Source: Acidobacteriota bacterium
GTDB taxonomy: Bacteria > Acidobacteriota > Terriglobia > Terriglobales > Acidobacteriaceae
DNA length: 56,129 nucleotides
Direction: 5' to 3'
Assembly: GCA_021836865.1 (NCBI GenBank)
Contig: JAKBHH010000013.1
Span: forward strand, 1-56,129
Shown here: positions 8,842 to 38,522 of the stretch, piece after piece
Numbering within the stretch: the stretch's first letter is position 1
Layout: each line of letters begins with the position of its first letter
Made by a program: the position numbers and the translations under genes
Notes under the pieces: generated by a model
Database searches by the model: none
What the model saw: the letters and a program-made list of their open reading frames with translations, nothing else
What the model was told of the DNA's origin: nothing

Positions 8842-10068
8842 ATGCGGATTGTCTTTTTCACGGAAACCTTTGTTCCGAAAGTCGACGGCATCGTCACGAC
8901 GCTGTGCCAGACGGCGCGCCAACTGGTGCGGATGGGCCACGAGGTGCTGATCTTCGCGCCCGAAGGCGGCATCACCGAGTATGAAGGCGCGCGCGTGGTG
9001 GGTGTGAAAGGCCACGCACTTGCCTTCTACCCTGAGCTGCGGCTCTCGCTGCCGCGCGCCTCCATGCGACAAGTCTTGCAGGCATTCCGGCCGGACGTGA
9101 TTCACGTCGCCGAACCGATTCTGCTGGGCGTGGCCGGGCTCTACTACGCGGGCGGTGGCGATGGCGGGCCTCTCAAAACGCCGCTCGTGATCTCGTACCA
9201 CACGGACTTGCCGAAGTATCTGCACTACTACCGCATGGCGTTTCTGGAGCCATACATCTGGCCGCTGCTGCGGCTGCGCCACAACCGCGCCACGCTCAAC
9301 CTCTGCCCCTCCGACGTGATGGTGCAACAGCTCAGGGAACATGGCATTGCGCGGTCCGAGCTTTGGCCGGGCGGAGTAGACACGGAACGATTCACGCCGG
9401 AGAAGCGATCGGCGGCGATGCGCGCGCGGCTGACCGATGGCCACCCGGAAAGCCCGCTGCTGCTCTATGCCGGGCGGCTCTCTGCCGAGAAGGAGATTGA
9501 GCGCCTGAAGACCGTGCTGGCCGCTGCGCCCGAGACGCGGCTGGCGCTTGTTGGCGGAGGACCGCATGAGAAGGCGCTGCGTGCGTTCTTCGCCGGACTG
9601 CCGGTCCACTTTGCCGGCTTTCTGCATGGCGACGAGCTGGCGGCAGCCTTCGCGTCGTGCGATGTCTTCGTGATGCCCTCACGCACGGAGACGTTGGGGC
9701 TGGTTGTGCTGGAGGCGATGGCCTCGGGCGTGCCCGTGGTGGGCGCACGGGCCGGCGGCATTCCGGAGATGGTGAACGACGGCTTGAACGGATTCCTCTT
9801 CGACACGGAAGAACAGGCTGCGGAGCAGGTGACGCTGCTGCTGGGCGATGCAGGCAGGCGTGCAATCATGGGCCAGGCGGCGATGGCGCGCGCGGCGCAG
9901 CATAGCTGGCGGGCGGCGACGGAGCAACTGCTCGCGCACTACCAGACGGCGATTACAACTCAATATGTGGGCCCGAACCTTGCGCCTCACCCGCGTGGCG
10001 TGAAGGCGCGCAGCAAGCAGGCGATGGGCCGTGCCACGCTGTTTGCGATTCGGAAGCTGCTGCCTTAG
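8842..10068 (+). CDS. Glycosyltransferase family 4 (GT-B fold)
   Basis: A 408-residue, complete GT4 enzyme. The N-terminal acceptor domain begins MRIVFFTETFVPKVDGIVTT, with the glycine-rich turn replaced by KVDG as in mannosyltransferase MgtA/SqdX-like enzymes. HVAEPILLGVAG and the strand PLVISYHTDLPKY follow. The C-terminal nucleotide-sugar domain shows LLYAGRLSAEKEIE (about 211-224) and the family signature EAMASGVPVVGARAGGIPEMV (about 291-311), with the E-x7-E pair that binds the donor. It probably glycosylates a lipid at the inner face of the membrane. Donor specificity is not readable. It ends 25 bases from the convergent LolA-like gene. Confidence 0.88.
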   Translation: MRIVFFTETFVPKVDGIVTTLCQTARQLVRMGHEVLIFAPEGGITEYEGARVVGVKGHALAFYPELRLSLPRASMRQVLQAFRPDVIHVAEPILLGVAGLYYAGGGDGGPLKTPLVISYHTDLPKYLHYYRMAFLEPYIWPLLRLRHNRATLNLCPSDVMVQQLREHGIARSELWPGGVDTERFTPEKRSAAMRARLTDGHPESPLLLYAGRLSAEKEIERLKTVLAAAPETRLALVGGGPHEKALRAFFAGLPVHFAGFLHGDELAAAFASCDVFVMPSRTETLGLVVLEAMASGVPVVGARAGGIPEMVNDGLNGFLFDTEEQAAEQVTLLLGDAGRRAIMGQAAMARAAQHSWRAATEQLLAHYQTAITTQYVGPNLAPHPRGVKARSKQAMGRATLFAIRKLLP

Positions 10069-10093
10069 TGCCGGTTCACGCTACCGGGCGGCT

Positions 10094-10825
10094 TCAGCGG
10101 CTGGCGATCTGCGGCGTCAGTTCCTTGTACTCGCCGTAGTCGATGGTAAGCACCGCTGTTCCGCCGATGCGGACATGCGTCTCGCTGCGGTTCTGCTCAG
10201 GAAGCCAGAAGCCGCCCATCCGCGCCGTGGTGAAGTGGATCAGAGTCTGCGAGATCCAGAACGAGGGATTCTTTGCCGGTGTGGCTTCGATCTTCACGAC
10301 CGCAAAGTCGCGCGCATCCACCCACACTTTGCCCTTGTAGAGAAACTTGCTGGGCGTGATGGGCTGCACATTCAGGATGTACGCAGGGCGGCCGTCCACG
10401 GTGTCGCGGCCCTCCAGCGCGAAGCGGTAGTTTGCCGGCGTCAGTTCGGTCGCGCTCTGGTCTTTCTGCGCTTCGTTCTCGCTGTCCACAGCGCGCTTCA
10501 GCACCTTGTCACAGAGAAACCGCGAGCCGCTCTGCGAGACAATGTGGAAGCTCTTGCCCGAGGCGGCGTCGTAATCCACTTCGACATCCATTTTGGCGTC
10601 CACGCTGGCGGGGAATCCACGGTAGTGCACCGCATAGTGACGCAGTGATTCGTAGCGCTTCAGTTCCTCGTTGCGCGTCAGAGTGTGACTCTGCATCTGC
10701 GCCACAATCTGCGCGACTGTCGACGTCGTGGCCGGCACGGAGTCAGCCGAATCAGCACGCGCGGCGGGGGTTGAAGCGAGGGGAAGGGCCAGGAGACACA
10801 AAGCTCCGGCCGCGAAAAGACGCAT
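10094..10825 (-). CDS. Periplasmic LolA-like / outer-membrane lipoprotein-sorting-like protein
   Basis: About 243 residues from the ATG at 10825. An ATG nine codons upstream (10852) is equally possible, and neither has a good ribosome-binding site. The N-terminus MRLFAAGALCLLALPLASTPAARA is a Sec signal peptide with an AxA cleavage site. The mature region has the curved beta-sheet pattern of LolA/LolB-like proteins: YRGFPASVDAKMDVEVDYDA, YILNVQPITPSKFLYKGKVWVD, FAVVKIEATPAKNPSFW. This fold binds lipid acyl chains, so a role in lipoprotein or lipid transfer is plausible but unproven. It is followed on the same strand side by four beta-barrel genes, though each appears separately transcribed. 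Confidence 0.6.
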   Translation of the reverse strand: MRLFAAGALCLLALPLASTPAARADSADSVPATTSTVAQIVAQMQSHTLTRNEELKRYESLRHYAVHYRGFPASVDAKMDVEVDYDAASGKSFHIVSQSGSRFLCDKVLKRAVDSENEAQKDQSATELTPANYRFALEGRDTVDGRPAYILNVQPITPSKFLYKGKVWVDARDFAVVKIEATPAKNPSFWISQTLIHFTTARMGGFWLPEQNRSETHVRIGGTAVLTIDYGEYKELTPQIASR

Positions 10826-10918
10826 GATCCATGATAACGGACCGGGGCGCATCCATCCAACGGATTGCGCTGGGTGCGGGCCGCGCGGCGCATTCGGGTC
10901 ATGTGGCGAAGCGCGAAC

Positions 10919-11569
10919 TCAGAAGCGGAAGTACGCCCCGATCATCGGCTCAGCGGTATGGAGAAAGGCGTCTGGTCCACTCATCATAAAGGTGCTGCTC
11001 ACATCAGGGGCCTTGTAGAGATTGCCCCGATACTGCACACGCAGCCCGAGATGGGGCGCAAGATCCCAGTCCGCACCTGCACCGTAGACGTAAACTGCAT
11101 TCGTTGAGGTAAGTGGAGCGGGGGAGTACTGGGCAAGCGTCTGGCTTCCCGTGGGCACCGTGACCAGCAGGCCTACGCCAAGCACGGCAAACGGGCGCAG
11201 GCTGCCGAACTTCATCGATGGCACCCAGTCCGCAGTGATCTCGTGCGCATTTGCTGAGACTGTATTGGAGAACTGGCAGGCGGGATTTGGACAGAGGTCG
11301 TAGGGCGGGTTGAACAGATAATTTTGATTCGCACGGTTGAACGAGTACGTTGCCTCAAAGCCGATGAGCGGATTCACAAGATGGCGCAGTTCGATCATCC
11401 CACCCGCCTGGCTTGAGGGGGTCTGGCGCAAAATGAAGCTGCTTGTCGCCGTATTGCTGAAAGCGCCGAAAAAGCTCAGGGCAACGTCAGTCTGCGCAGG
11501 AGCTGTAGCGACGATGGCTGCGAAGAAGAGTGCCGAAGCAAAGACGCGATGCAAATTGCGGATGCACAT
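10919..11569 (-). CDS. Outer-membrane beta-barrel protein, array member 1
   Basis: A 216-residue protein with a signal peptide (MCIRNLHRVFASALFFAAIVATAPAQ). The mature domain shows alternating polar and aromatic residues and ends IGAYFRF, the C-terminal Phe signal recognised by the BAM complex. Shared landmarks with the next two genes are MIELRHLVNPLIGFEATYSFNRANQ, NAHEITADWV, LRPFAVLGVGLLV, YGAGADWDLAPHLGLRVQYRGNLYKAPD and the AEPMIGAYFRF end. The size fits an eight-stranded barrel of the OmpA-transmembrane/OmpX type. It is the last of four tandem paralogues. Ligand and role are unknown. Confidence 0.75.
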   Translation of the reverse strand: MCIRNLHRVFASALFFAAIVATAPAQTDVALSFFGAFSNTATSSFILRQTPSSQAGGMIELRHLVNPLIGFEATYSFNRANQNYLFNPPYDLCPNPACQFSNTVSANAHEITADWVPSMKFGSLRPFAVLGVGLLVTVPTGSQTLAQYSPAPLTSTNAVYVYGAGADWDLAPHLGLRVQYRGNLYKAPDVSSTFMMSGPDAFLHTAEPMIGAYFRF

Positions 11570-11670
11570 TCGGATTTCCCCCCGTTGAAGTTAAAGTGAC
11601 CGTCAGAAGCGTTGCACTCGTGACCACTGGCCGGCGGAGTGTGAGCGACGATTCAACGCGCCGCCGCCCG

Positions 11671-12351
11671 TCAGAAGCGGAAGTACGCCCCGATCATCGG
11701 CTCGGCGGTGTGCGTGAAGCTGTTGGTGGACTGGAATGCGCCGATCAGGTCCGGTGCTTTGTAGACGTTGCCCCGATACTGCAGGCGCAGGCCGAGGTGC
11801 GGCAGCAGGCCCCAGTCGAGACCCGCGCCGTAGACGAAGACACCCGTCGTCGAGCTCTGTGTGGATGCGGGAGAGGTCAAGCAGGCCGGAACGCCCACAT
11901 AACAGCCGAACACATTTGCGCTGCTGGCGGCATTCACAAGGAGTCCACCACCTGCCAGAGCGAAGGGACGGAGGTTGGCGAGTTTGAGGGAAAAGATCCA
12001 GTCTCCGGTGATCTCGTGGGCGTTGTTTGCGACCGTTCCGGCACGCTCGATCAGGCAGATGCCCTGGACTGGCGAACAGACTGGAACGAATACTGTGCTC
12101 AGATATTTCTGGTTGGCGCGGTTGTAGGAGTACGTTGCCTCATAGCCGACGAGCGGGTTGGAGATGTGGCGCAGCTCGACCATGCCTCCAGCCTGGTTCG
12201 CAGGGCTTTGGGTGACGCCGTTGCCAGTCGTCGAGCCGGTGAAGGCTCCGTAGAAGCTCAGGGCAACGTCGGTCTGTGCCGGCGCTGCGGCCGCGATCGA
12301 CACCAGAAAAAAGGGCAGCATCCAGACACGGTGCATCTTGCTCAGGTGCAT
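11671..12351 (-). CDS. Outer-membrane beta-barrel protein, array member 2
   Basis: A 226-residue protein, the closest relative of array member 1. It has a signal peptide MHLSKMHRVWMLPFFLVSIAAAAPAQ, then TDVALSFYGAFTG, MVELRHISNPLVGYEATYSYNRANQ and the same AEPMIGAYFRF terminus. GAGGTGAAGGA lies just before the ATG. A loop in the middle carries cysteines (VCSPVQGICLIE and FGCYVGVPACL) that could make disulfides in extracellular loops. The corresponding loop is different in each paralogue, as expected for surface-exposed, diversifying segments. About 100 bases separate it from each neighbour, so each copy may have its own promoter. Confidence 0.75.
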   Translation of the reverse strand: MHLSKMHRVWMLPFFLVSIAAAAPAQTDVALSFYGAFTGSTTGNGVTQSPANQAGGMVELRHISNPLVGYEATYSYNRANQKYLSTVFVPVCSPVQGICLIERAGTVANNAHEITGDWIFSLKLANLRPFALAGGGLLVNAASSANVFGCYVGVPACLTSPASTQSSTTGVFVYGAGLDWGLLPHLGLRLQYRGNVYKAPDLIGAFQSTNSFTHTAEPMIGAYFRF

Positions 12352-12539
12352 GTTCCTTCACCTCGCAGGAGGGCTCTGCGCGCAGCACGGAGATGGAGCA
12401 GTTCCGGAGACGCGCTGTCGAAGTAGGATGCAACTTTGGCGCACGAAGGAGGCTCGCCCCTGTGACCGCCGGCACAGCGTGATGTGACGAGCCGGGGCCG
12501 GTCAGAAACGAACCACGACTACGTATCACGATCACGCGC

Positions 12540-13169
12540 TCAGAAGCGGAAGTACGCCCCGATCATCGGCTCCGCCGTCTGGGTGAACCGGTTCGTCGAC
12601 GTATAGAGCTTCGTCAGGTCGGGCGCTTTGTAGAGATTGCCGCGGTACTGCACCCGCAGGCCGAGATGCGGCAGAAGGCCCCAGTCCAGCCCGCCGCCGT
12701 AGACGAAGACGCCCTGCGTGCTGGTGCTGGTGGAGCCGCCGCTCGATGCAGGCACGTTCAACAGCAGGCCACCGCCGCCCAGCAGGAACGGCTTGAGATT
12801 CGCGACGCCAAAGGAGAGGAGCCAGTCCGCCGTAACTTCGTGTGCATTGGCCGGAACGGAGACGGGCGCCGGACACCCAGAACCGGGACAGAGACCGGGG
12901 GTCCGACTGAGGCCCGATGAATAGGCCTGATTGGCGCGGTTGTAGGCATACGTCACTTCATACCCGACCAGCGGGTTGGAGATGTGGCGCAGCTCGAAGA
13001 GCACGCCCGCCTGATTGGAGGGACTTTGAACCGTGTTATTGCTGGATGTTTTACCGCTGAAGGCCCCGTAAAGGCTGGCCGCCGCATCGTTCTCAGCCTG
13101 GGCCACAGCGCCGCACAGAAAAGCGAAACAGAAGAAAACAAACGCCGTATACGTCCACTTCACTCGCAT
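12540..13169 (-). CDS. Outer-membrane beta-barrel protein, array member 3
   Basis: A 209-residue protein from the second of two adjacent ATGs. GGAGG lies 5 bases upstream of it, which rules out the longer frame from 13253. It has a signal peptide (MRVKWTYTAFVFFCFAFLCGAVAQA), then DAAASLYGAFSG, LFELRHISNPLVGYEVTYAYNRANQ, NAHEVTADWLLSFGVANLKPF and the shared AEPMIGAYFRF end. One loop has paired cysteines (TPGLCPGSGCPAP), and another is a Ser/Thr-rich stretch (PASSGGSTSTSTQ). It is the same eight-stranded barrel type as members 1 and 2. Confidence 0.75.
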   Translation of the reverse strand: MRVKWTYTAFVFFCFAFLCGAVAQAENDAAASLYGAFSGKTSSNNTVQSPSNQAGVLFELRHISNPLVGYEVTYAYNRANQAYSSGLSRTPGLCPGSGCPAPVSVPANAHEVTADWLLSFGVANLKPFLLGGGGLLLNVPASSGGSTSTSTQGVFVYGGGLDWGLLPHLGLRVQYRGNLYKAPDLTKLYTSTNRFTQTAEPMIGAYFRF

Positions 13170-13319
13170 CATTTCCTCCGCCGCTTCTCGCCGAAGCTTG
13201 GTTGTGTATGAATGTGGGAAGTTGCCAGCACCGCGGCGCCGTTTACGCCGCAATGCCAGTTAGACGCGCATGGCATTCGATGGGTGGCCTGTGCCGCAGA
13301 TGACGCAGGTAACAGAAAA

Positions 13320-13354
13320 CCCTTTGGCGCCTGCATCGTGCGTTCGCCAAAGGG
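13320..13354 (-). terminator. Rho-independent terminator after array member 4
   Basis: CCCTTTGGCG and CGCCAAAGGG form a perfect 10-bp stem with a 15-base loop, followed on the minus strand by TTTTC. It sits 30 bases after the stop of the gene at 13384-14007. Confidence 0.7.
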
Positions 13355-13383
13355 CTTAGCTGCGAGAGAGTGATGGTGCGGCG

Positions 13384-14007
13384 CTACGGCCGGAAGTAAA
13401 TGCCAATCGAGGGCTGGATGGTCTGCATATACGCGCCTGTCGGCGAGTAGAGGATCGACAGATCGGGAGCTTTGTAGGCTGCGCCGCGCACCTGCGCGCG
13501 GACTCCGAAGCGCGAACCGAGAGAGTAGTCCACACCGCCGCCGTAGTCAAACGAGATGCGGACGACGGAGTTCAGAGCGTAGTCGTTGGTGTTCGGTTCC
13601 GAAATCACAAATCCAAGACCGGCGAGCCCGAATGGGCTGAACCCCGCATATTTCTTCTTGGTGGTGAACATCCAGTTCATGCCGATCATGTGATTGTCTG
13701 AGGTCACTGTAACGGGCTTGTTGCCGCACCGCAGGCCGCAACTTGTGGGTGCGACGGTATAGGACTCATCTGCCGGATTGTAGGAGTAGCTTAGTTCAAA
13801 TCCCTTCAGCGGCTTGAGGATATAACGGAATTCCAACAGGACGCCGGGGGAGTTCTTCGGCGTTTGTTCAGCTCCATTGCCGGTGGTGGAGGTGTTATAA
13901 GCCTGAAAAAAACTTCCCGCAACATCGAACTGCGCATAGGCCGGGACGCCGCTCAACACCGCGGCTCCAAACAAAATTCCAACGGCCTGCATCCACTTCA
14001 TTCGCAT
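13384..14007 (-). CDS. Outer-membrane beta-barrel protein, array member 4 (most divergent)
   Basis: A 207-residue protein with a signal peptide (MRMKWMQAVGILFGAAVLSGVPAYA) and then FDVAGSFFQAYNTSTTGNG, aligned with the start of the other members. It keeps VLLEFRYILKPLKGFELSYSYNPAD, DNHMIGMNWMF, FSPFGLAGLGFVI and GVRAQVRGAAYKAPD. It ends SIGIYFRP, so the terminal Phe seen in the other three copies is replaced by FRP, which could alter BAM recognition. Two cysteines lie in one loop (TSCGLRCGNKP). It is first in the tandem array, with its own terminator directly downstream. Confidence 0.72.
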   Translation of the reverse strand: MRMKWMQAVGILFGAAVLSGVPAYAQFDVAGSFFQAYNTSTTGNGAEQTPKNSPGVLLEFRYILKPLKGFELSYSYNPADESYTVAPTSCGLRCGNKPVTVTSDNHMIGMNWMFTTKKKYAGFSPFGLAGLGFVISEPNTNDYALNSVVRISFDYGGGVDYSLGSRFGVRAQVRGAAYKAPDLSILYSPTGAYMQTIQPSIGIYFRP

Positions 14008-14369
14008 TCTGATCTCCGTAATCGAATTCGATCTCTTGCTGATACGCCCGGCAGGGAAATCCCTGCTGCCTTGCTGTGCCGAAGCCCGCTGCGCCCTAAA
14101 GCCCTTGGACGCGATAGCGGAACTTTGGGTAACTCAAAAGAGGCTCTTCTGCCGGAAAGCTCGAGACTTTCGCGGCTTGTTGCATGGCTGCGCCGCCGCG
14201 CAGGACACACAATCTCCCTTCGCAGCCACTGGCCGGCGGACAAGCCGCCAGTCGCGCGGCTGCCTCTTGCCCCGTGCGCAGAACCCACGCGAAAGATCAG
14301 GATACATGGCGACCCCTCTCACGAAGTAGCGGGCTGAGCGGAAATCCGGGTTATGCTGTCACAACAACT
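14008..14369. other. Divergent intergenic region with a short perfect palindrome
   Basis: About 360 bases lie between the divergent starts of beta-barrel member 4 and gamma-glutamyltranspeptidase, so both promoters should be here. GCAGGGAaaTCCCTGC at 14051-14066 is a perfect 7+7 inverted repeat that could be an operator or a small hairpin. A translated frame runs through the region into the transpeptidase gene, but it has no signal peptide and no family resemblance, so it was not used. Confidence 0.45.
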
Positions 14370-16145
14370 ATGATGCGACGGCCTGATTTCCCTGTCCTGG
14401 CAGTCCTCGCGGCTGCCGTGCTTTCCATCCCCGCCACCATCGCCGCCCAGCAGGGAGCGCTGAATGCGCTCGACTACCGGGGCGAGCAGCCCGTCCGCGC
14501 CCGTCACGGCATGGTCGTCAGCGTGCATCATCTGGCCTCCGATGCCGGCCTTGAGGTGCTGCGCGAGGGCGGCAATGCGGTGGACGCAGCCGTGGCCACC
14601 GGCTTCGCCCTTGCCGTGGTCCATCCCGCGGCCGGCAACCTGGGCGGCGGCGGCTTTATGCTGCTGCGTACCCACGACGGCAGGGCAACCTTCATCGACT
14701 TCCGCGAGAAGGCTCCGCTGGCCGCAACTGAGACGATGTACCAGGACGCCCAGGGCAACGTCCTGCCTGCCACCGATCTCCGATCGAGTATCCTCGGCTA
14801 CCGCTCCATCGCTACGCCCGGCTCTGTCGCCGGCCTGGCTTATGCCGAACGCAAATACGGCAAGCTGGACCTTAAGCGCGTCATGGCTCCCGCCATCAGG
14901 CTGGCGGCGGATGGCTTCCTGCTCACCGCCGAAGAGGCCGAAGAGCTGACCGATCCCGACCTGGCCCGGTTTCCTGAGTCGAAACGGATCTTTCAGCGCG
15001 ACGGCAACCTCTACAAAGCAGGCGAGGTCTTCAAGCAGCCGCTGCTGGCGCAGACCCTCACGCGCATTGCCGCCAACCCCGATGACTTCTACCACGGCAA
15101 GATGGCCCAGCAGCTCATCGATGACCTGAAGAAAGGCGGCGCGCTGCTCACCTTGGATGATATGGCGCAGTACACCGTGGCCGAACGCAAGCCTGTGACA
15201 GGCACCTTCCGCAACTACACCATTCTCAGCGCGCCACCTCCGTCCTCCGGCGGGGTTGTCCTGATCAGCGCACTCAATATTCTGGAGAGCTACGACCTGG
15301 CAAAACTCGGCGACCGCAGCCCTGCGTGGATGCACCTGCTCACCGAGGCCTACCGCCGCGCTTACATGGATCGCAGCGATTATCTGGGGGATCCGGACTA
15401 CAACCGCATTCCCGTGGCCGATCTCACCAGCAAGAAATACGCCGCGGCCTGGCGCGCAAGCATCCTGCCCGACAAGGCCTCGCCCAGCGCCTCGCTGATG
15501 CGGCCCGCAGGCTTCCTGCCGCCTCCGCCGACCACGCCCGGCCAACGCGGACCGGAGTCGCAGGACACCACCCACTACTCGGTTGTGGACGGCGCAGGCG
15601 ACGCCGTCTCTGTCACCTATACCCTCAATGACGGCTTCGGCTCCCACGTCACCTCCGGTTCGCTCGGCTTTCTGCTCAACGACGAGATGGACGACTTCGC
15701 CTCAAAGATGGGCGTGCCCAACATGTTCGGCCTCATCCAGGGACCGGCCAACGCCATCGCTCCCGGTAAGCGCCCGCTCAGCTCCATGACGCCGACGATC
15801 ATCCTTGAAGACGGTAAGCTGCGCTTCGTCCTCGGCTCGCCGGGCGGAGCGTTCATCATCACCACGGTCGCCAACATCTTTCTCTCCGCGGCCGACGGCG
15901 GCCTCAATATTCAGGAGGCGGTGGACGCGCCCCGCTTCCACCACCAGTACCTGCCCGACAAGCTGATTGCCGAGCCGGGCCTCAGTCCGGAGACGGCGGC
16001 CAGCCTGCGCGCCATGGGGTATGACGTGCTGGTCTTCAAGCGCCACTGGTCCAATGGCGAGTGCATTGCGGTGGACCCCAAAACCGGCGAGCTGGAAGGC
16101 GGGCAAGACCATCGCAGCCACTACGGCAAGGCGGCTGGCTACTGA
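14370..16145 (+). CDS. ggt: Gamma-glutamyltranspeptidase
   Basis: A 591-residue preproprotein. The start MMRRPDFPVLAVLAAAVLSIP begins a Sec signal peptide, and the longer frame upstream would bury it. The large-subunit region has the Arg-loop GNLGGGGFMLLRTHDGRATFIDFREKAP. The autoprocessing site is DTTHYSVVD, with catalytic Thr near residue 400, and the small subunit carries SSMTPTIILEDGKLRFVLGSPGG. The enzyme cleaves glutathione and other gamma-glutamyl compounds in the periplasm and transfers the glutamyl group to water or amino acids. Length and motif order fit E. coli GGT. It is followed after 124 bases by a TIM-barrel gene on the same strand. Confidence 0.95.
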   Translation: MMRRPDFPVLAVLAAAVLSIPATIAAQQGALNALDYRGEQPVRARHGMVVSVHHLASDAGLEVLREGGNAVDAAVATGFALAVVHPAAGNLGGGGFMLLRTHDGRATFIDFREKAPLAATETMYQDAQGNVLPATDLRSSILGYRSIATPGSVAGLAYAERKYGKLDLKRVMAPAIRLAADGFLLTAEEAEELTDPDLARFPESKRIFQRDGNLYKAGEVFKQPLLAQTLTRIAANPDDFYHGKMAQQLIDDLKKGGALLTLDDMAQYTVAERKPVTGTFRNYTILSAPPPSSGGVVLISALNILESYDLAKLGDRSPAWMHLLTEAYRRAYMDRSDYLGDPDYNRIPVADLTSKKYAAAWRASILPDKASPSASLMRPAGFLPPPPTTPGQRGPESQDTTHYSVVDGAGDAVSVTYTLNDGFGSHVTSGSLGFLLNDEMDDFASKMGVPNMFGLIQGPANAIAPGKRPLSSMTPTIILEDGKLRFVLGSPGGAFIITTVANIFLSAADGGLNIQEAVDAPRFHHQYLPDKLIAEPGLSPETAASLRAMGYDVLVFKRHWSNGECIAVDPKTGELEGGQDHRSHYGKAAGY

Positions 16146-17140: not shown

Positions 17141-18211
17141 TCAGCAGATGCGCGGCAACTGCTCGCCAATCTGAGTCGGAATCACGCGGTTCGAACCCAT
17201 TGCTGTGCGCGCTACTAACATTCGCTTGTGCTGATCCGTCACCTGGCCGATGCGCGCGGCGTCGCGGCCCAGCGGGTGCGCCCGCAGAATCTCCAGTACC
17301 CGCGCGGCCTCCTCCGGCGCAACGAAGAGCACCGCTTTGCCTTCATTGGCCACGTAGACCGGATCAAGCCCCAGTATTTCGCAGGCCGACTGCACCTCCG
17401 GCCGCACCGGCAGGCTGGGCTCGTCGATCACGATGCCTGCGTCCGAGGCCGTCGCAATCTCATTCAGAGTGGAAGCCAGGCCCCCGCGCGTGGGGTCGCG
17501 CATGGCGTGGACTCCATCGCCCACCGCATCCAGCACCTCGGCAATCATCCCATTCAGCGCCGCGCAGTCTGAGCGGATCTGGCTCTCAAACTCCAGCCCT
17601 TCGCGCACGCTCATGATCGCCATGCCGTGGTCGCCAATTGTGCCCGACACCAGCACCGCGTCGCCTGGCTGCGCACGGTGCGGCCCCACCGCAATCCCCG
17701 GCCGCAGCACGCCGATGCCCGCCGTGTTGATGTAGCAGCCGTCCCCGTGCCCGCGCTCCACCACCTTGGTGTCTCCCGTGACGATGCGGACCTGCGCGAC
17801 GCGTGCAGCTTCGGCCATGGCGTCCACGATTGCAGCAAGCTGCGCGAGAGGAAAGCCTTCTTCCAGAATGAAGCTGGCGCTGAGGAATTTCGGCTCCGCC
17901 CCGGAGACGGCGAGGTCGTTGACTGTGCCGTTGACCGCCAGCGCGCCAATCGAGCCGCCAGGAAAAAACAGGGGCTGCACAACAAACGAGTCCGTGCTCA
18001 TGGCCAACCTGCCCGACTCCAGTTCGAAGACCGCGGCGTCTCCCAGGTTTTCGAGCTCAGGATTGCGGAAAGCGGGCAGAAAAAGGTGCTCCACCAACTC
18101 ATTGCCCAGCTTGCCGCCGCCGCCGTGGCCCATCACGATGGTAGGGTAATCCTTGAGCGGCAACGGGCAACTCCAGCGGGAAAAATCCGGCAGGACAGCG
18201 TTCTCAGCCAT
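17141..18211 (-). CDS. hypE: Hydrogenase maturation protein HypE
   Basis: A 356-residue protein of the PurM/AIR-synthase-like fold. It has [22 protein letters not shown] near residue 27, [32 protein letters not shown]-binding [37 protein letters not shown] and [19 protein letters not shown]. It ends QLPRIC: the C-terminal Cys is the one that HypF carbamoylates and HypE dehydrates to a thiocyanate, the source of the cyanide ligands of [NiFe]-hydrogenase. The start overlaps the end of hypD by 8 bases, so translation is coupled. It is the last gene of the hyp cluster here. Confidence 0.95.
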
Positions 18212-19391
18212 GCGTCGCTCCGGACAATGCGGACCCTGCCCCCGCCAGTTCCTCCGCCGACAGGAACCGCCCGTAGTTGTAGTACGCCGCGCAGGCGCCT
18301 TCGCTGGAAACCATGGTCGCGCCTAACGGATGACGCGGCGTGCACTCCTTGCCGAAGGCCGGGCACTGGGCAGGCTTGATCGCTCCACGCAGCACATCGC
18401 CGGAGCGGCACAGCGGCGACTCCACCGTATGGATAGCTCTGATCTGGAAGCGATTCTCGGCGTCGAAAGCCCGATAGGCGTCCTTGAGCCGCCAGCCGCT
18501 TTTCGGAATCACGCCGATTCCGCGCCAGGCGCGATCCGTCACCTCAAAAACCTCTGCCAGCAGCTTCTGCGCCGCTGGATTGCCTTCAAACTTCACGATG
18601 CGCTCGTAGGCGTTCTCAACCTCATGCCGGCCGGCCTCCAGTTGAATGACAACCCGGCGAATGCCATCCAGTAAATCCAACGGCTCAAAGCCCGTGACCA
18701 CCAGAGGGATTCGGAATTTCTCGGCCAGCGGAGGATACTCCCAATATCCCATCACGCTGCACACATGCCCCGCGAGCAGAAAGCCCTGCACCTGTGGTCC
18801 CGTGGTCCCCGGTGACGGGTCTTCGTCGCCGGGGTGGTGATTTCCTGGCGCGCTCATGATGGCATCAATCGCAGGCGGCACCAGCACATGCGACACCAGC
18901 AGGGAAAAATTGGTGAGCCCGCGCCTCTTGGCCACATGCACGCTCATCGCATTGGCAGGGGCCGTTGTCTCAAAGCCCACACCAAAGAAGACCACCTGCT
19001 TGTCAGGATTCTTCGCAGCCAGATCCACCGCATCCAGCGGCGAATAAACGACCCGCACATCGCCGCCCGCGCCCTTCACCTGAAACAGATCGCTGTCAGT
19101 GCCCGGCACGCGCAGCATATCGCCAAAGCTGCAGAAGATAACCCCCGGTTGCGCGGCAATGGCCAGTGCCTTGTCGATCAGTTCCAGCGGCGTGACGCAC
19201 ACCGGGCAGCCCGGCCCGTGGATCATCTCGATCCCCGGCGGCAGCATCTGGTCGATACCATTTTTGATGATCGAATGGGTCTGCCCGCCGCAGACCTCCA
19301 TGATCTTCCACGGCCGCGTGGTGACAGCGTGAATTTCCCGCGCCATGCGCTGGGCAATTTCTCCATTGCGAAACTCCGTGAGGTACTTCAT
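18204..19391 (-). CDS. hypD: Hydrogenase maturation protein HypD
   Basis: A 395-residue protein from [11 protein letters not shown]. Upstream in-frame sequence belongs to the hypC reading region and lacks homology. HypD is the Fe-S scaffold on which Fe(CN)2CO is assembled. Conserved cysteine motifs are [17 protein letters not shown] and the C-terminal cluster [10 protein letters not shown]...[13 protein letters not shown]...[11 protein letters not shown], which binds the [4Fe-4S] centre. [15 protein letters not shown] is also characteristic. The ATG overlaps the hypC stop by 4 bases (ATGA) and its own stop overlaps hypE, so hypC-D-E form one translationally coupled unit. Confidence 0.95.
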
Positions 19392-19765
19392 GCGCGGCTC
19401 GCTCCGCCATGCACTCCGGGCACCCCAGCCCGCCGTTCCGAGACCTGGGAGTCCGCCGAGCAACTCCCATCCGGACAGGCCGACTGGGGCGCAGCCGCCG
19501 CCCGCGCAAAGTGCTCTTCTTCCGTGGCCAGTTCTTCGTCCAGCACGCCCATCGCGCGGAACTCCCGCAGGGTCTGCTCGGCCGTCTCCTCGTCGATCTT
19601 CGAGAGCGCAAAGCCCACATGGACGATGGTGTAGTCGCCCACCTCGACCTCCGGCACATAGTCCAGACAGACGCGTTTGACCACCCCGCCAAAGTTCACC
19701 CGCCCCACCCGAAGATCACCCTCGGTGGTAATCTCTTCTACTTTTCCCGGAATCGCTAGACACAT
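19388..19765 (-). CDS. hypC: Hydrogenase maturation chaperone HypC with extended C-terminus
   Basis: A 125-residue protein. The start at 19765 is fixed by the invariant MCLAIPGK N-terminus, whose Cys2 must follow the removed Met to bind iron. Another ATG three codons earlier would destroy this. The core (residues 1-82) includes [13 protein letters not shown] and [20 protein letters not shown]-type HypC features with His49. HypC carries the iron centre between HypD and the hydrogenase large subunit. HypC is usually 75-100 residues. This one has an additional tail of about 40 residues with CPDGSC (Cys97, Cys102) and a Gly/Arg-rich end. A CRP/FNR-like palindrome lies 40-50 bases upstream. Confidence 0.93.
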
Positions 19766-19781
19766 AGCATCCACCTTATAC

Positions 19782-19801
19782 CTTGCGGGGAAAGCCGCAA
19801 G
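19782..19801. other. Small perfect hairpin upstream of hypC
   Basis: CTTGCGG and CCGCAAG form a 7-bp stem with a 6-base loop between the DUF1801 stop and hypC. No T-run follows on the minus strand, so it could be a weak terminator, an mRNA-stabilising hairpin or chance. Confidence 0.35.
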
Positions 19802-19803
19802 AT

Positions 19804-19817
19804 GTGATCCAAATCAC
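19804..19817. promoter_or_regulatory. CRP/FNR-family-like binding site upstream of hypC
   Basis: GTGATccaaATCAC is a perfect 5+5 palindrome with a 4-base centre, extended to TGTGA-N6-TCAC as in CRP sites and close to the FNR/DNR pattern TTGAT-N4-ATCAA. It lies in the 73-base gap before hypC. TATAAG on the minus strand (19780-19775) would place its centre about 42 bases from the start point, the classic activating position, though that start point would be only a few bases before the hypC ATG. Confidence 0.5.
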
Positions 19818-19838
19818 CTCATCAGGGTAGGGGTCGAT

Positions 19839-20228
19839 TCACTTCTTCCGCTCATTCTCTGCCACGCGCGCCTTCACCATCTTCTTTACCAGCGCCGCCG
19901 GCAGGGGCCGGTCCAGCGGGAACTGCAGCGTCCCCTTCGACGTGCGGTAGCCTTTCAGATCGTCCTGCATCGCGTCGGTCAACGAAGCCTGCATCGGGAA
20001 GAAACTGCAATGATTCTTGAACGCGCCATAGGCCACCAGCGCGCCCTTATAGCGGAAGGCCGGCATGCCGTAACTCAACTGTTCCGTCGCCTCCTTCGGC
20101 GCCGATGCGCGAATCATTGCGCGCAACTTGGCCAGCGTCGTCCGTGCCGGCTCCGGCACTTTGGCAAGATACGCCTCGACGCCCGCAACGCCATTTGCCG
20201 CCTCCACGTTGCTCTTTGCGCTCTGCAT
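19839..20228 (-). CDS. DUF1801-family protein inside the hyp cluster
   Basis: A 129-residue protein starting after a GGGAGG ribosome-binding site. The sequence (VAGVEAYLAKVPEPARTTLAKLRAMI, EQLSYGMPAFRYKGALVAYGAFKNHCSFFPM, GTLQFPLDRPLPAALVKKMV) is that of the DUF1801/YdhG-like family, which includes the Bacillus iron chaperone Fra. That family folds into a small alpha/beta domain and has been linked to iron handling in a few cases. It sits between hypB (33 bases upstream) and hypC (73 bases downstream) on the same strand, which is not a usual hyp gene position. A link to iron delivery for maturation is speculation. Confidence 0.8.
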   Translation of the reverse strand: MQSAKSNVEAANGVAGVEAYLAKVPEPARTTLAKLRAMIRASAPKEATEQLSYGMPAFRYKGALVAYGAFKNHCSFFPMQASLTDAMQDDLKGYRTSKGTLQFPLDRPLPAALVKKMVKARVAENERKK

Positions 20229-20261
20229 CCGTAACCTCCCTTCGCCGGAATGCTCGACCGG

Positions 20262-20933
20262 CTAACTTCCTGCGTGGTTCGCTCCTTGCTCTTGCAGATA
20301 CCCCAGCCACTCCGCCAGCCCCGCGCCCGTCTTCGCCGATGTCTCAAAGATGCGAATGCCGGGCCGGATCTCGTTGATATTCCTGAGCGCCGCTTCTCGA
20401 TCAAATCCGACGGCCTCCGCAATATCCATTTTCGTAATCACCGCCGCATCGGCTGAGTTGAACAGCGTGGGATACTTCAGCGGCTTGTCCTCGCCCTCGG
20501 TCACGCTCAAGAGGGCCACGCGAATCTTCTCGCCGAGGTCGTAGCTGGACGGGCACACCAGATTGCCCACGTTCTCGATAAACAGATAATCCAGCGCAGC
20601 AAGCTCCCATCCGTCCAGATGCTTACCCACCATCTCGGCCTCCAGGTGGCAGATGCCGTGCGTGTTGATCTGCCGCACCGGCGCGCCGCTGGCGGCAAGC
20701 CGCCGCGCATCGTTGTCGGTCTCCAGATCGCCCACCAGCGCCGCCGCGCGAGAGCCCTGCGCGAGCAACTCGCGCAGCGTGCGCTCCAGAAATGCCGTCT
20801 TCCCTGTTCCCGGGCTCGAAACCAGGTTCAGCACCAGCACGTTAGCCGCAGTAAACCGGTCGCGCAGTCCCGCCGCGAGTTCGTCATTCTTCTTCAGGAT
20901 TCCTCTCCGCAGCTCCACAATTCGGGTCGTCAT
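20262..20933 (-). CDS. hypB: Hydrogenase nickel incorporation GTPase HypB
   Basis: A 223-residue G protein: P-loop SSPGTGKT at residues 39-46, GDLETDNDA near 68-76, the metal-binding THGICHLEAEMV block (Cys95, His96), LFIENVGNLVCPSSYDLG, and the guanine-specificity motif TKMD. HypB hydrolyses GTP to drive nickel insertion into the hydrogenase large subunit together with HypA. The N-terminus is short and lacks the CxxCGC high-affinity nickel motif and any His-rich stretch, so only the G-domain metal site remains. The ATG overlaps the hypA stop by 4 bases. Confidence 0.95.
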   Translation of the reverse strand: MTTRIVELRRGILKKNDELAAGLRDRFTAANVLVLNLVSSPGTGKTAFLERTLRELLAQGSRAAALVGDLETDNDARRLAASGAPVRQINTHGICHLEAEMVGKHLDGWELAALDYLFIENVGNLVCPSSYDLGEKIRVALLSVTEGEDKPLKYPTLFNSADAAVITKMDIAEAVGFDREAALRNINEIRPGIRIFETSAKTGAGLAEWLGYLQEQGANHAGS

Positions 20934-29847: not shown

Positions 29848-30048
29848 ATGGAAACAGGCACAGTCAAGTGGTTTAACGACGCCAAGGGTTTTGGATTTTT
29901 GAGCCGTGAGAACGGCGAGGACGTCTTCGTCCATCACACCGCCATCCAGTCGAACGGCTTCCGTTCACTGCAGGAAGGCCAGAAGGTCCAGTTCAACGTG
30001 ACCAAGGGCCCCAAGGGCTGGCAGGCTGAGAACGTTCAGGCTATCTAA
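29848..30048 (+). CDS. Cold-shock domain protein (CspA family)
   Basis: A 66-residue single cold-shock domain, [21 protein letters not shown]. It has the nucleic-acid-binding motifs RNP1 (KGFGFL) and RNP2 (DVFVHHTAI), followed by [23 protein letters not shown]. It binds single-stranded RNA/DNA and acts as an RNA chaperone. AAAGGA precedes the ATG at slightly long spacing. The gene has its own promoter-like element with a long leader and a very strong terminator, so it is monocistronic. Confidence 0.95.
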
Positions 30049-35676: not shown

Positions 35677-38265
35677 TTAGAAGTGTGCTGTGATGGTGCC
35701 GTACACCGAGGCCGGTGCGCCCGGATAAGCCAGGATATAGCCGCCGGTCGGTGTGCCGAAGTAGCCACCCGAGGAGACATACTCGTACTCGTTGTAGCGG
35801 TTGCGGAAGATGTTCAGCGCGTTGAGGCCGATGTCCGTGTGCTTCAGCGGAACCTTGAAGCCCACATTGGCGGTAGTGAAGTTGGACATTGTCTTGCTGC
35901 TGGGCAGCGCCACGGAGTTGTCGAAGATGGCCTGGCGTCCCGTGTACTGCAGGGAGAACATCGGCTGCACCGGCACCTTCATCACGTTGAACTGGTAATA
36001 CGCGCCTGCGTTCAACGTTGAATTCGGCACGTAGGCTACGGGCAGGCCGTTGTACGCAGTCCCGCCCAGCGCCACGGTCGGCGCTCCGGTCACGTAGTTG
36101 GTGTAAATGGCTCGCTCCACACTGGCGTTGGCAAAGATGTGCAGCTTGGCAATCGGGTCGTCGTCGACGTACAGGTTCACGCCGTGATAGCTAGAAGTAC
36201 CGCTGTTGGCAATGGTGTCGCCGTTGGCCAGCGAGACGTCAATCTCCTGGTTCGAGTAGCGCTGATGGTAGAAGTTCGCGCCGAACAGGAAACTGTTCAG
36301 CACGCCCGTACCCTCATTGTGAATCTTGAAGCCGCCCTGGTAGAAGCGCTGCCGGGCTAGATGGTAGCTGCTCGGATCGACGCTCTGAAAGAGGCCGCCG
36401 CCGCCGCCCATCTGCGGCGACTTGAGCGCCTCCTGATAGCCGCCGTAGATCGTCAGCCACGGCATCACCAGGTAGTCCACATCCGCCGAGGGCTCCATGC
36501 CGCTGCGATTCTCCTGCGCGCCGCAGTTCGCGCCCTGATCCTTGGTGTTGGCGCCCGCCGGCGTGGTCTGCTGGTAGAAGTTGGCGCAATCGCTGTTATG
36601 CAGCACCACGCCGGAAGCAAATTTGAAGTCCTGCAGCGCGTGGTTCGAGTAGTTCACCTGGAAGCCCGAATAGCGGATGCCCGGCGTAATGTGCAGCTTC
36701 GAGGTGGGACGGAAATCATCCTGCAGGAAGATCGTAAAGTCGTCCTGGTCAAAGTAGCCGGAGCGGACCTTGCCGCCGATGTTGGCGGTGGTCTTCGATC
36801 CGCCATTTGCCGGATTGAAGAAGTTATTCCGGGAATTATAGAGCGCGTGAATGTAATAGCCCCCGCCCTTGATCGTATTCATCGGCAGCACCTTGCTGAA
36901 TCCCACGCGGTCGCCCACCGTATCCGTATGCGGGTCGTTCCACTCCATCAACTGCGGCCCCGGCGAGTACACGTCGTTGATGCGATGGTGTGTACGGTCA
37001 ATGCGCATGAACCAGCCCAGGTTGTCGAAGGTCAGCGTCGGGTCCAGCCGCACGGACTGACGCGAGTAGATCAGCGCCATGTCGTTGGTGTCGTACTTGT
37101 TGTAGTCCACATACGACAGAGTGCTGTAGAAGCCCGACGTGGGCTGACTATACTCCAGACTGCCCGCCTGACCGTCGATGGTAATGCCTGGGTTGGCCGT
37201 GGTTGGAATCACCTGCGACCGGTAACCGCCCGAGTGCGCGTAGTAGCCGCCCAACTCGAAGCTGCCTTCCTCGAAGGCATGCACCGTCTTCAGGTAGACC
37301 GCAATATCCTTGGCGGGATTCTTGAAGCCGTCCGGGCTGCGGCGAAAATCGTTGCCTGTGTCGCCGCCCACTGAGGCCGCCGTGGACCAGCCGTGGAAGA
37401 TGCCGGAGGTCGCGTTTACCACCATGTCCTTTTGGAAGAAGCTGCCGTAGGACGTAATCACCGCGATGTGCGGCTTGACTGTGGGCTCGACCGGAGTAAA
37501 CTCCACCTGGCCGCCGATGTTGGTGTACCAGCGGTCGGCCGCTGCGCCGGGGCCGTAGGTTACATCCACGTTCTGAATCATCGCGGTCTCGGGAATTGTG
37601 GGTGACTGCCACAGCCCGGTTGCAGGATCGGCGATCGGTACGCCGTCGAATGTGATCGACAGCGAACCCCCGCCCGTGTAGCCACCGTATCCGCCCCAGC
37701 CCTGGTCGATGCCGTTCAGCATGATGGTGTACTTGGTGGCGCCGGTGTTGCCGTAGCCGGTCACGTTCGCGCCCGGCGCCGTGGCCAGGATCTGCGCCGC
37801 GCCGGCCACCGGGCCGGCGATGTCCATCTGCTGGCGGTCAATCACGCGCAGCGACTGGTCCGAATTGAAGACATCGGACTGTGAGGGTTGCGGCGTCGCG
37901 CCCTCCAGCCCGCCCCCGTACACAACTACCGATTGACCGGCCGAGGAGACCGAAAGCGTCACCTCCAGATTCAGTTCCTGGCCCGTCGTCAGTCTCAGGT
38001 TCTCCTTGTGATAAGGCGCGAAGCCGCTGGCCGATACGGTCACGGTGTAGTTGCCGAGCGGCAAAGCGGGCGTGGAAAACTTGCCCGCGGCATCGCTGGT
38101 CACGTGAAACGTCACGCCGCCATCGCCGGTCAGCGTCACGTCGGCGCCGGGCACAAGGGCTCCTGACGCATCCAGCACACGGCCGTGAACCTCATTGTCC
38201 GCGGCAAATGAAAGTGCGCATCCTAAAATTGCGATACAAACGCAGATCAACCCTTTGCGTACCAT
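35677..38265 (-). CDS. TonB-dependent receptor with carboxypeptidase-regulatory-like domain
   Basis: An 862-residue outer-membrane receptor from MVRKGLICVCIAILGCALSFA, a Sec signal peptide; longer frames lack one. Residues about 24-105 form an Ig-like carboxypeptidase D regulatory domain (VHGRVLDASGALVPGADVTLTGDGG, PLGNYTVTVSASGFAPY). The plug follows (VFNSDQSLRVIDRQQMDIAGP, ILATAPGANVTGYGNTGATKYTIMLNGID), then a beta-barrel ending YGTITAHF with the terminal Phe. It imports a siderophore, vitamin or glycan fragment using TonB energy. The ligand is unknown. No periplasmic binding protein or permease genes are adjacent. The N-terminal domain plus plug layout is typical of Acidobacteriota. Confidence 0.9.
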   Translation of the reverse strand: MVRKGLICVCIAILGCALSFAADNEVHGRVLDASGALVPGADVTLTGDGGVTFHVTSDAAGKFSTPALPLGNYTVTVSASGFAPYHKENLRLTTGQELNLEVTLSVSSAGQSVVVYGGGLEGATPQPSQSDVFNSDQSLRVIDRQQMDIAGPVAGAAQILATAPGANVTGYGNTGATKYTIMLNGIDQGWGGYGGYTGGGSLSITFDGVPIADPATGLWQSPTIPETAMIQNVDVTYGPGAAADRWYTNIGGQVEFTPVEPTVKPHIAVITSYGSFFQKDMVVNATSGIFHGWSTAASVGGDTGNDFRRSPDGFKNPAKDIAVYLKTVHAFEEGSFELGGYYAHSGGYRSQVIPTTANPGITIDGQAGSLEYSQPTSGFYSTLSYVDYNKYDTNDMALIYSRQSVRLDPTLTFDNLGWFMRIDRTHHRINDVYSPGPQLMEWNDPHTDTVGDRVGFSKVLPMNTIKGGGYYIHALYNSRNNFFNPANGGSKTTANIGGKVRSGYFDQDDFTIFLQDDFRPTSKLHITPGIRYSGFQVNYSNHALQDFKFASGVVLHNSDCANFYQQTTPAGANTKDQGANCGAQENRSGMEPSADVDYLVMPWLTIYGGYQEALKSPQMGGGGGLFQSVDPSSYHLARQRFYQGGFKIHNEGTGVLNSFLFGANFYHQRYSNQEIDVSLANGDTIANSGTSSYHGVNLYVDDDPIAKLHIFANASVERAIYTNYVTGAPTVALGGTAYNGLPVAYVPNSTLNAGAYYQFNVMKVPVQPMFSLQYTGRQAIFDNSVALPSSKTMSNFTTANVGFKVPLKHTDIGLNALNIFRNRYNEYEYVSSGGYFGTPTGGYILAYPGAPASVYGTITAHF

Positions 38266-38522
38266 GCAGCAACCAACCTCCAAGTCAGGAATCAGATATT
38301 TCAGCAATTTCTCGCGTGTTCCACCGTGAACCGGTAGATCATTGGGCACACCGCTCTTCGCCGGCCTTCGCAGGGGAAGACACGCTTACCTTCTTTCAAC
38401 CTCGTTACACAGGGTTGAAACAGGGATGAATGTTTCACTATGGGAAGATTGCGTGCCGATGAATGCCAACGCCCAACGGTGGATTCGTGGCAAGCGCATC
38501 CGCTGCGTTACCCTAGTCCCTG

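Follow-up and report, generated by a model that had tools for sequence, protein, structure and literature searches.

The best-known mosaic surface proteins belong to bacteria of humans and animals, and host immunity readily explains why they vary. Here we describe a tandem array of four small outer-membrane beta-barrel genes from a member of the Acidobacteriota, located on a 56,129-nucleotide stretch of DNA (contig JAKBHH010000013.1 of assembly GCA_021836865.1; hereafter the window). Among comparable systems, the Opa proteins of Neisseria are barrels of eight strands, their loci are scattered, and a coding repeat, CTCTT, switches their reading frame. The opa loci are phase-variable and carry variable loops, with exchange within strains and positive selection, and little inter-species recombination is reported for gonococcal opa (PMC5020929, PMC13183285). 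In the mosaic evolution of E. coli outer-membrane proteins, a conserved barrel is combined with highly variable extracellular-loop regions through local recombination and some positive selection, and the sources of the variable regions are left as a question (PMC12175518). Inter-species transfer of a surface-loop barrel gene is described for Neisseria porB (PMC10327514).

We number the genes of the array 1 to 4 in the order of transcription on the minus strand. Our reading, to which we assign a probability of about two in three, is that the array is old, that the loops of genes 2 and 3 change by recombination tracts and by replacement on a conserved scaffold, and that a 2-kb tract has been exchanged between species. 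Like the E. coli mosaic proteins, the array has a conserved scaffold, loops varied by local recombination and a conserved genomic site; it differs in belonging to Acidobacteriota, in being tandem and in having an identifiable loop source, of the neighbouring-paralogue type (PMC12175518). In the comparison with a far-off lineage, that of the REEB207 record, nonsynonymous change (dN) is far below synonymous change (dS) in the membrane parts of genes 3 and 2, a mark of a negatively selected scaffold. The second mark, local recombination at surface loops, was seen at loops 1 and 2 of gene 2 and not in gene 1. As far as sequences can tell, the array fits mosaic evolution of outer-membrane proteins; a role as phage receptor is putative. 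With Opa it shares small barrels at several loci and variable loops, whereas its copies are tandem, an inter-species tract is seen and phase-variation repeats were not found (PMC5020929, PMC13183285); tandem repeats in 10,000-14,500 amount to four arrays, each of 1.9-2.5 copies, whose periods are 6, 12, 12 and 13 bases. Opa60 is also a structural match to the array barrel model (VIA-align Z 10.7). Exchange among loci of the Opa type may be reflected in the variable loops and in a gene-3-type loop in a gene 2; within one genome it would rest on 135 bases at a contig end. The likeness to porB lies in the transfer of a surface-loop barrel gene between species, and the difference in that porB is a single 16-stranded porin gene (PMC10327514).

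Recombination and replacement at the surface loops

DNA matching the array was found in 53 of 80 genomes of the window's genus, the window's own genome included. Long matches were those to REEB207 (89% over 2550 bases), BP5.bin97 (84% over 1409 bases) and WY4.bin103 (75% over all 3089 bases of the array). Orthologues stand in the order 1-2-3-4 in WY4.bin103 (locus L036), 1-3-4 in BP5.bin56 (L037), 1-2-3 in REEB207 (L038), whose contig ends within the first part of gene 4, and 1-2, then a contig end, in BP5.bin97 (L097). That four orthologue groups persist across species, and that gene 1 is conserved with its own terminator, would suit functional specialisation, with four barrels serving different ligands or conditions and loop differences that are adaptive but stable. 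This is compatible with an old array undergoing loop exchange, and we rate it as possible without favouring it. One fixed ligand per position is disfavoured by the orthologues, which, like the paralogues, vary at loops 2 and 3 in genes 3 and 4 and at loops 1 and 2 in gene 2.

Identity between the window and REEB207 was then compared along the DNA. Neighbouring genes are 81.0% (HypD), 80.1% (HypE), 72.6% (XylI) and 74.7% (gamma-glutamyltranspeptidase, GGT) identical and gene 1 is 76.0% identical, as against 94.1% for gene 2 and 90.4% for gene 3. Another 12.5 kb of the window showed 71-83% identity in four genomes of the genus, two short pieces excepted, of which one (36 bases) is 89% and the other (43 bases) 84% identical. 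Examined in 60-base steps, identity to REEB207 climbs from 72% to 92-95% near 13,500. The resulting tract of about 2 kb has its high end between about 13,380 and 13,500, and its low end is the REEB207 contig end, within gene 4. Three of its five lower steps fall at loops (73% at gene 2 loop 1, 75% at gene 3 loop 2 and 65% at gene 3 loop 3), one at the signal peptide of gene 2 (87%) and one at the gene 4 start (85%). HypD genes of REEB207, WY4.bin103 and BP5.bin56 are mutually 87-91% identical and 81% identical to that of the window, while for gene 2 the window and REEB207 are nearest each other. Since HypD sets the window apart and gene 2 pairs it with REEB207, the window lineage is the likelier recipient. 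The tract, comprising genes 2 and 3 with flanks, thus appears to have moved between species, being shared by the window lineage and the far-off REEB207 lineage.

Loop changes were examined with 21 triplet permutation tests, of which nine reached the floor of 5e-5, three gave 2.5e-4, 1e-4 and 0.0019, and nine gave 0.03-0.84; these values are uncorrected for multiple testing (21 times the floor is 0.001). Fisher tests on nonsynonymous and synonymous contrasts used rounded counts. In gene 2, 8.8 of 11.7 synonymous sites in loop 1 differ between the window and REEB207, dS is 0 in loops 2 and 3, and membrane dS is 0.076 (contrast for loop 1, p 5.5e-8). High synonymous change in loop 1 beside none in loops 2 and 3 points to replacement of a segment. 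The loop 1 of REEB207 gene 2 best matches gene 3 of BP5.bin56 (L128, 87%), followed by gene 3 of the window and of REEB207 (81%), and its seven best matches include no gene 2 except itself. The switch gave p 5e-5 in four of five triplet set-ups. In REEB207 gene 4, a switch from gene-4 to gene-3 type occurs at about residue 24, after the signal peptide (p 5e-5 in 3 of 3 set-ups), and residues 31-45 are 98% identical to its own gene 3. REEB207 and BP5.bin97, whose neighbouring GGT genes are 96.7% identical, show dips at gene 2 loop 1 (70%) and loop 2 (78% and 73%). At loop 2, gene 2 of BP5.bin97 leans towards the WY4.bin103 type (p 2.5e-4; the two tests on this gene gave 2.5e-4 and 1e-4). Loop 3 of REEB207 gene 3 likewise leans to the WY4.bin103 type (p 5e-5), which makes that of the window the odd one; the latter leans weakly to L127 (p 0.0019). 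These results suggest that recombination, across species as well as across paralogue types, produces a good part of the variation.

Several points weigh against such exchange. For the switch in REEB207 gene 2 loop 1, the set-up that took gene 2 of WY4.bin103 as parent gave a p of only 0.03, and exchange within the REEB207 genome is not established because the best match is the gene 3 of another species. The gene 4 switch is based on 135 bases at the very contig end, where assembly error is likeliest. Loop matching and triplet tests found no good donor for loops 2 and 3 of the window's gene 3. Two tract steps outside the loops, the gene 2 signal peptide and the gene 4 start, also fall below 92%. 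Triplet tests for a breakpoint inside gene 1 were weak (p 0.042, 0.71 and 0.057), and the last 150 bases of gene 1 are rather conserved against WY4.bin103 as well (85%), so the upstream edge of the tract is approximate. The BP5.bin97 array contig may be a stray, as it measures 3 kb and the bin holds two HypD/E copies. Finally, the closely compared genomes are drafts, and a chimeric contig, joining the flanks of one species to the barrel stretch of another in the sample, could mimic the tract. The 192 contigs of the window's genome and the abrupt switch in identity would agree with an assembly chimera of this kind, which we nevertheless consider unlikely. The barrel stretch is identical to no genome compared (membrane dS to REEB207 of 0.076 in gene 2 and 0.227 in gene 3), so it would have to come from a relative not yet sampled; the WY4.bin103 and BP5.bin56 loci agree with the window in gene order and in both flanks; and switches within REEB207 were found also with parents other than the window.

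Replacement substitutions also contribute. Nonsynonymous and synonymous differences between the window and REEB207 gene 3 number 13 and 4 in loop 2 and 1 and 16 in the membrane part (p 5.9e-5), with dN 0.21 and dS 0.18 in loop 2 (dN/dS about 1.2 in this one pair), a possible sign of the third mark of mosaic evolution, positively selected sites within loops. Plain mutation under diversifying or relaxed selection, without recombination, would account for this loop when set beside its membrane part. As an account of the array it is very unlikely, since in gene 2 loop 1 synonymous change is saturated beside regions with dS near 0, a rise not expected from protein-level selection alone, and since the REEB207 loop matches another paralogue type. 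Pooled over 18 close, overlapping family pairs, synonymous difference is 0.184 in membrane parts and 0.236, 0.343, 0.186 and 0.205 in loops 1-4. The scaffold strands are under strong purifying selection: membrane dN and dS are 0.005 and 0.227 in gene 3, and 0.014 and 0.076 in gene 2.

Gene 1 behaves differently. Against REEB207, its loops 1-3 have dN 0.126-0.196 with dS 1.7 or saturated, loop 4 has dN 0, and the membrane part has dN 0.103 and dS 1.2. The sole close pair, REEB207 and BP5.bin97, shows zero differences in loops 1 and 2. The diversifying surface loops proposed in the initial annotation are supported for genes 2-4, the loops being where most differences lie between the near-identical orthologues of genes 2 and 3, and are not supported for gene 1.

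Taken together, the data suggest an old array of four small outer-membrane barrels, kept at a conserved site between GGT and a LolA-like gene, whose loops change by two routes. In one, a recombination tract of about 50-100 bases swaps a loop, once for a loop of gene 3 (neighbouring-paralogue) type; in the other, seen at loop 2 of gene 3, amino acids are replaced while synonymous change does not rise. The tandem copies, whose strand blocks and 3' ends are conserved, may supply the homology for exchange, and cysteine pairs may brace the loops as disulfides. When phages, bacteriocins, predators or neighbours make contact, the loops would act as targets or ligands, which would favour new loops while the barrel keeps a structural role, and gene 1, ending on its own terminator, would be the conserved partner. 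As vertebrate immunity is not expected to act on Acidobacteriota, phages, bacteriocins or predators are indicated, and we infer the selecting agent to be one of these. More tentatively, the array could serve as a built-in loop library, in which paralogues donate disulfide-braced loops, blocks move between species by homologous recombination and gene 1 stays fixed; this is possible, though well short of an even chance. If true, it would provide a rapidly changing surface against phages or rivals beside a constant gene 1. One loop of neighbouring-paralogue type is a candidate answer to the question, left open in PMC12175518, of where new loop types originate. In the literature naming Acidobacteria, Acidobacteriaceae or Acidobacteriota, with subscription papers mostly not covered, we found no paper on such barrels.

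Age of the array and its chromosomal site

The named relatives are Acidobacteria records, mostly metagenome-assembled genomes (MAGs). Matches at an E value of 1e-6, many of them distant, were present in 45 of 60 related genomes, and at least 16 of 76 named loci have two or more same-strand copies, many loci being cut by contig ends. A tree was constructed from 117 rows once 15 duplicates had been removed. Other rows dropped before this point were the window's own copies (L001-L004), the fragments or mis-framed matches L104, L109 and the first match of L111, and a low-scoring, overlapping second match of L046; L005 and the remaining L111 row were left out before the 115-row alignment. Each window gene grouped with the positional orthologue of other species and not with the other copies of its own genome, which makes the array older than the species compared. 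Gene 1 fell in a separate 16-row subfamily (support 100/99). Same-residue codons between the window's barrel genes match at just 45-54% in the four pairs compared, which indicates that the copies are old, and the identical 33-base 3' ends of genes 2-4 amid this divergence suggest homogenisation.

A tree holding genes 2-4 and their orthologues as one group was not rejected (approximately unbiased test, p-AU 0.788), in a test on 62 of the 117 rows that left out distant and crowded groups and whose free tree search had missed a better tree. The result is in line with old in-place duplication, a common origin being neither rejected nor proved. A very unlikely alternative is recent local amplification, with one gene duplicated three times in this genome and copies diverging at loops under positive selection: genes 2-4 do share 51-55% identity (relative to gene 4), the common end and the unrejected origin, but the orthology already contradicts it, and the separate subfamily of gene 1 and the codon divergence also speak against it. 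The local amplification that had been proposed for this locus is thus acceptable as an old event and not as a recent one, the order 1-2-3-4 being shared with another species of the genus.

In a tblastn search with the neighbours, GGT adjoins barrels in 11 of the 76 named loci and the LolA-like gene in 8, many loci being truncated. From these neighbours we conclude that the site is conserved in part of the family and that copy number varies in place; loci that conserve a flank include single-barrel ones, for example L053 and L063. Another tandem barrel triplet lies at 1-2205 of L093 (MAG LSA3.bin29). In the two close pairs listed for this triplet, synonymous difference (pS) is 0.58 and 0.38 in loop 2, against 0.18 and 0.19 in the membrane part. 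The triplet is not simply a recent duplication, because one copy groups with L095 of another MAG.

Barrel products, predicted structure and cysteines

In agreement with the initial annotation, the array consists of four consecutive same-strand genes for proteins of 207-226 residues, with spacers of 211, 188 and 101 bases (roughly 100-200 bases had been given), and ends in AEPMIGAYFRF in three of them (genes 2-4) and in FRP in the fourth (gene 1, IGIYFRP). All four exceed the gathering score of PF13505 (OMP_b-brl; 28.7 bits), gene 1 with 38.4 and genes 2, 3 and 4 narrowly with 29.2, 29.9 and 29.3. This Pfam family is very broad and uninformative on function. An NCBIfam search gave no family above cutoff. 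Protein identity to gene 4 is 55% for gene 3, 51% for gene 2 and 33% for gene 1. The window is one contig (C113) of a 3.98-Mb draft genome that is 96% complete, and a protein search of this genome with gene 2 returned, beyond the four, one distant relative (24% identity, E value 4e-8) and one marginal match (E value 0.005). The FRP terminus, at 13384-13395, places proline where the terminal aromatic residue would stand. It is present in gene 1 and its four orthologues (5 of 115 family members), F being the last residue in 80 of 115.

The outer-membrane beta-barrel assignment was borne out by AlphaFold2. Genes 3 and 1, the two modelled, gave predicted antiparallel 8-stranded barrels with short periplasmic turns, with mean predicted local distance difference test scores of 92.8 (gene 3, 115-row family alignment) and 89.6 (gene 1, alignment A3, 89 rows). 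The signal peptides that had been called are matched in these two models by an N-terminal helix typical of such peptides (residues 3-20 in gene 3 and 3-18 in gene 1). The models resemble OmpA, NspA, Ail, OmpX and OmpW, with Foldseek E values of 3.9e-10 (OmpA) and 2.7e-7 (NspA), modest TM-scores over the query (below 0.55 for these families with gene 3) and VIA-align Z of 19.4 (OmpA model), 18.6 (NspA) and 18.5 (OmpW). The 8-stranded fold is shared with the OmpA transmembrane domain, OmpX, Ail, NspA and OmpW, while sequence identity to OmpA/OmpX/OmpW-type rows is just about 10-20% and paired loop cysteines are a feature of the array proteins. A PDB sequence search found nothing significant (best E value 0.064).

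Loop borders were taken from the DSSP line of one model (gene 3), with about 11 residues of each strand, counted from the periplasmic turn, assigned to the membrane part; other borders would shift the counts. Over 115 relatives, the commonest residue of a column has a mean share of 0.72 in membrane segments and of 0.60, 0.38, 0.32 and 0.58 in loops 1-4, and loops are accordingly less conserved than strands. Exactly two cysteines lie in loop 2 of 106 of the 115 members, the other 9 having none there; in loop 3 the count is two in 25 members, four in 4, one in 1 and zero in 85; and the mature protein has an even number in 111. Disulfides within loops are the natural reading of these pairs. The different Cys-containing loops reported earlier are real, but the loop 2 pair is common and the content around it differs: the loops are one shared design with variable content.

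Terminators, upstream motif and other features

A private terminator, one of the features initially proposed, was confirmed after gene 1, where a perfect 10-bp stem (13345-13354 pairing with 13320-13329) is followed by TTTT and the stretch folds at -30 kcal/mol (z -2.54). The terminator scanner did not list it because it allows loops of 3-8 bases and this loop has 15. Nearly the same stem, with the tail CTTTCT, occurs in the REEB207, WY4.bin103 and BP5.bin97 loci, and a different one in the same place in BP5.bin56 (CCCTCCGG...CCGGAGGG, then CTTTCT). Hairpin scanning and folding found no terminator after genes 2 and 3, and downstream of genes 2, 3 and 4 the sequence shows no more folding stability than its shuffled versions (z -0.83, -0.20 and 0.59). 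As to the separate expression units suggested initially, gene 1 has its own conserved terminator and may be one; genes 2-4 may be separate units or share one mRNA.

No sigma-70-like site was found in 10,000-14,500 (0.9 expected), and the window has no Rfam match at gathering scores. A k-mer search returned the octamer GCRTCCWA in 34 of 113 family upstream stretches (about 1.6 expected, in the set from which it was picked), mostly 50-105 bases before barrel genes. It may be a promoter element of these bacteria, and is kept as a lead because it was chosen from the same set, has no clear second box, occurs at chance in the whole window (7 against 7.25) and in the array precedes only genes 1 and 3.

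Table 1. Positions in the window of the barrel genes, their loops and associated features
Feature	Position	Strand	Description
Gene 1	13384-14007	minus	207 aa; predicted 8-stranded outer-membrane barrel of older subfamily; ends IGIYFRP; loop swapping not seen
Gene 2	12540-13172	minus	210 aa (209 from next ATG); barrel; DNA 94.1% identical to that of REEB207, differing mainly at loop 1
Gene 3	11671-12351	minus	226 aa; barrel with four loop cysteines; 90.4% DNA identity to REEB207
Gene 4	10919-11569	minus	216 aa; barrel; DNA identity 66-69% to orthologues in L128 and L125
Gene 2 loop 1	13008-13061	minus	Saturated at synonymous sites in the comparison with REEB207, which has a gene-3-type loop 1
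Gene 2 loop 2	12846-12935	minus	Contains the cysteine pair CPGSGC; shares 99% identity with REEB207 and differs from BP5.bin97
Gene 3 loop 2	12022-12117	minus	13 nonsynonymous and 4 synonymous differences to REEB207
Gene 3 loop 3	11842-11940	minus	Contains the second cysteine pair; differs from REEB207 by 15.8 nonsynonymous and 9.2 synonymous changes
Tract of about 2 kb	11461-13500		92-100% identity to REEB207 in 29 of 34 60-base steps; neighbouring genes 73-81%
Shared 3' end	10919-10951 (gene 4), 11671-11703 (gene 3), 12540-12572 (gene 2)	minus	33 bases identical in all three
Gene 1 intrinsic terminator	13316-13354	minus	10-bp stem, loop 15, TTTT tail; other stem CCCTCCGG/CCGGAGGG in L037
GCGTCCAA	14105-14112	minus	Lies 105 bases upstream of gene 1; enriched before family genes, possible promoter element
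GCATCCTA	12424-12431	minus	80 bases before gene 3; same possible promoter element as GCGTCCAA
GGT gene	14376-16145	plus	Divergent; syntenic upstream neighbour
LolA_like-type gene	10094-10852	minus	27.5 bits, below Pfam cutoff of 30; syntenic downstream neighbour

Near the barrel locus, hydrogenase maturation genes of HypE-like (AIRS), HypD and CobW/HypB type lie at 17141-20933. Elsewhere in the window, a TonB-dependent receptor with a carboxypeptidase-regulatory N-terminal domain is encoded at 35677-38349, and a short open reading frame at 29848-30048 may encode a cold-shock protein, judging from its motif.

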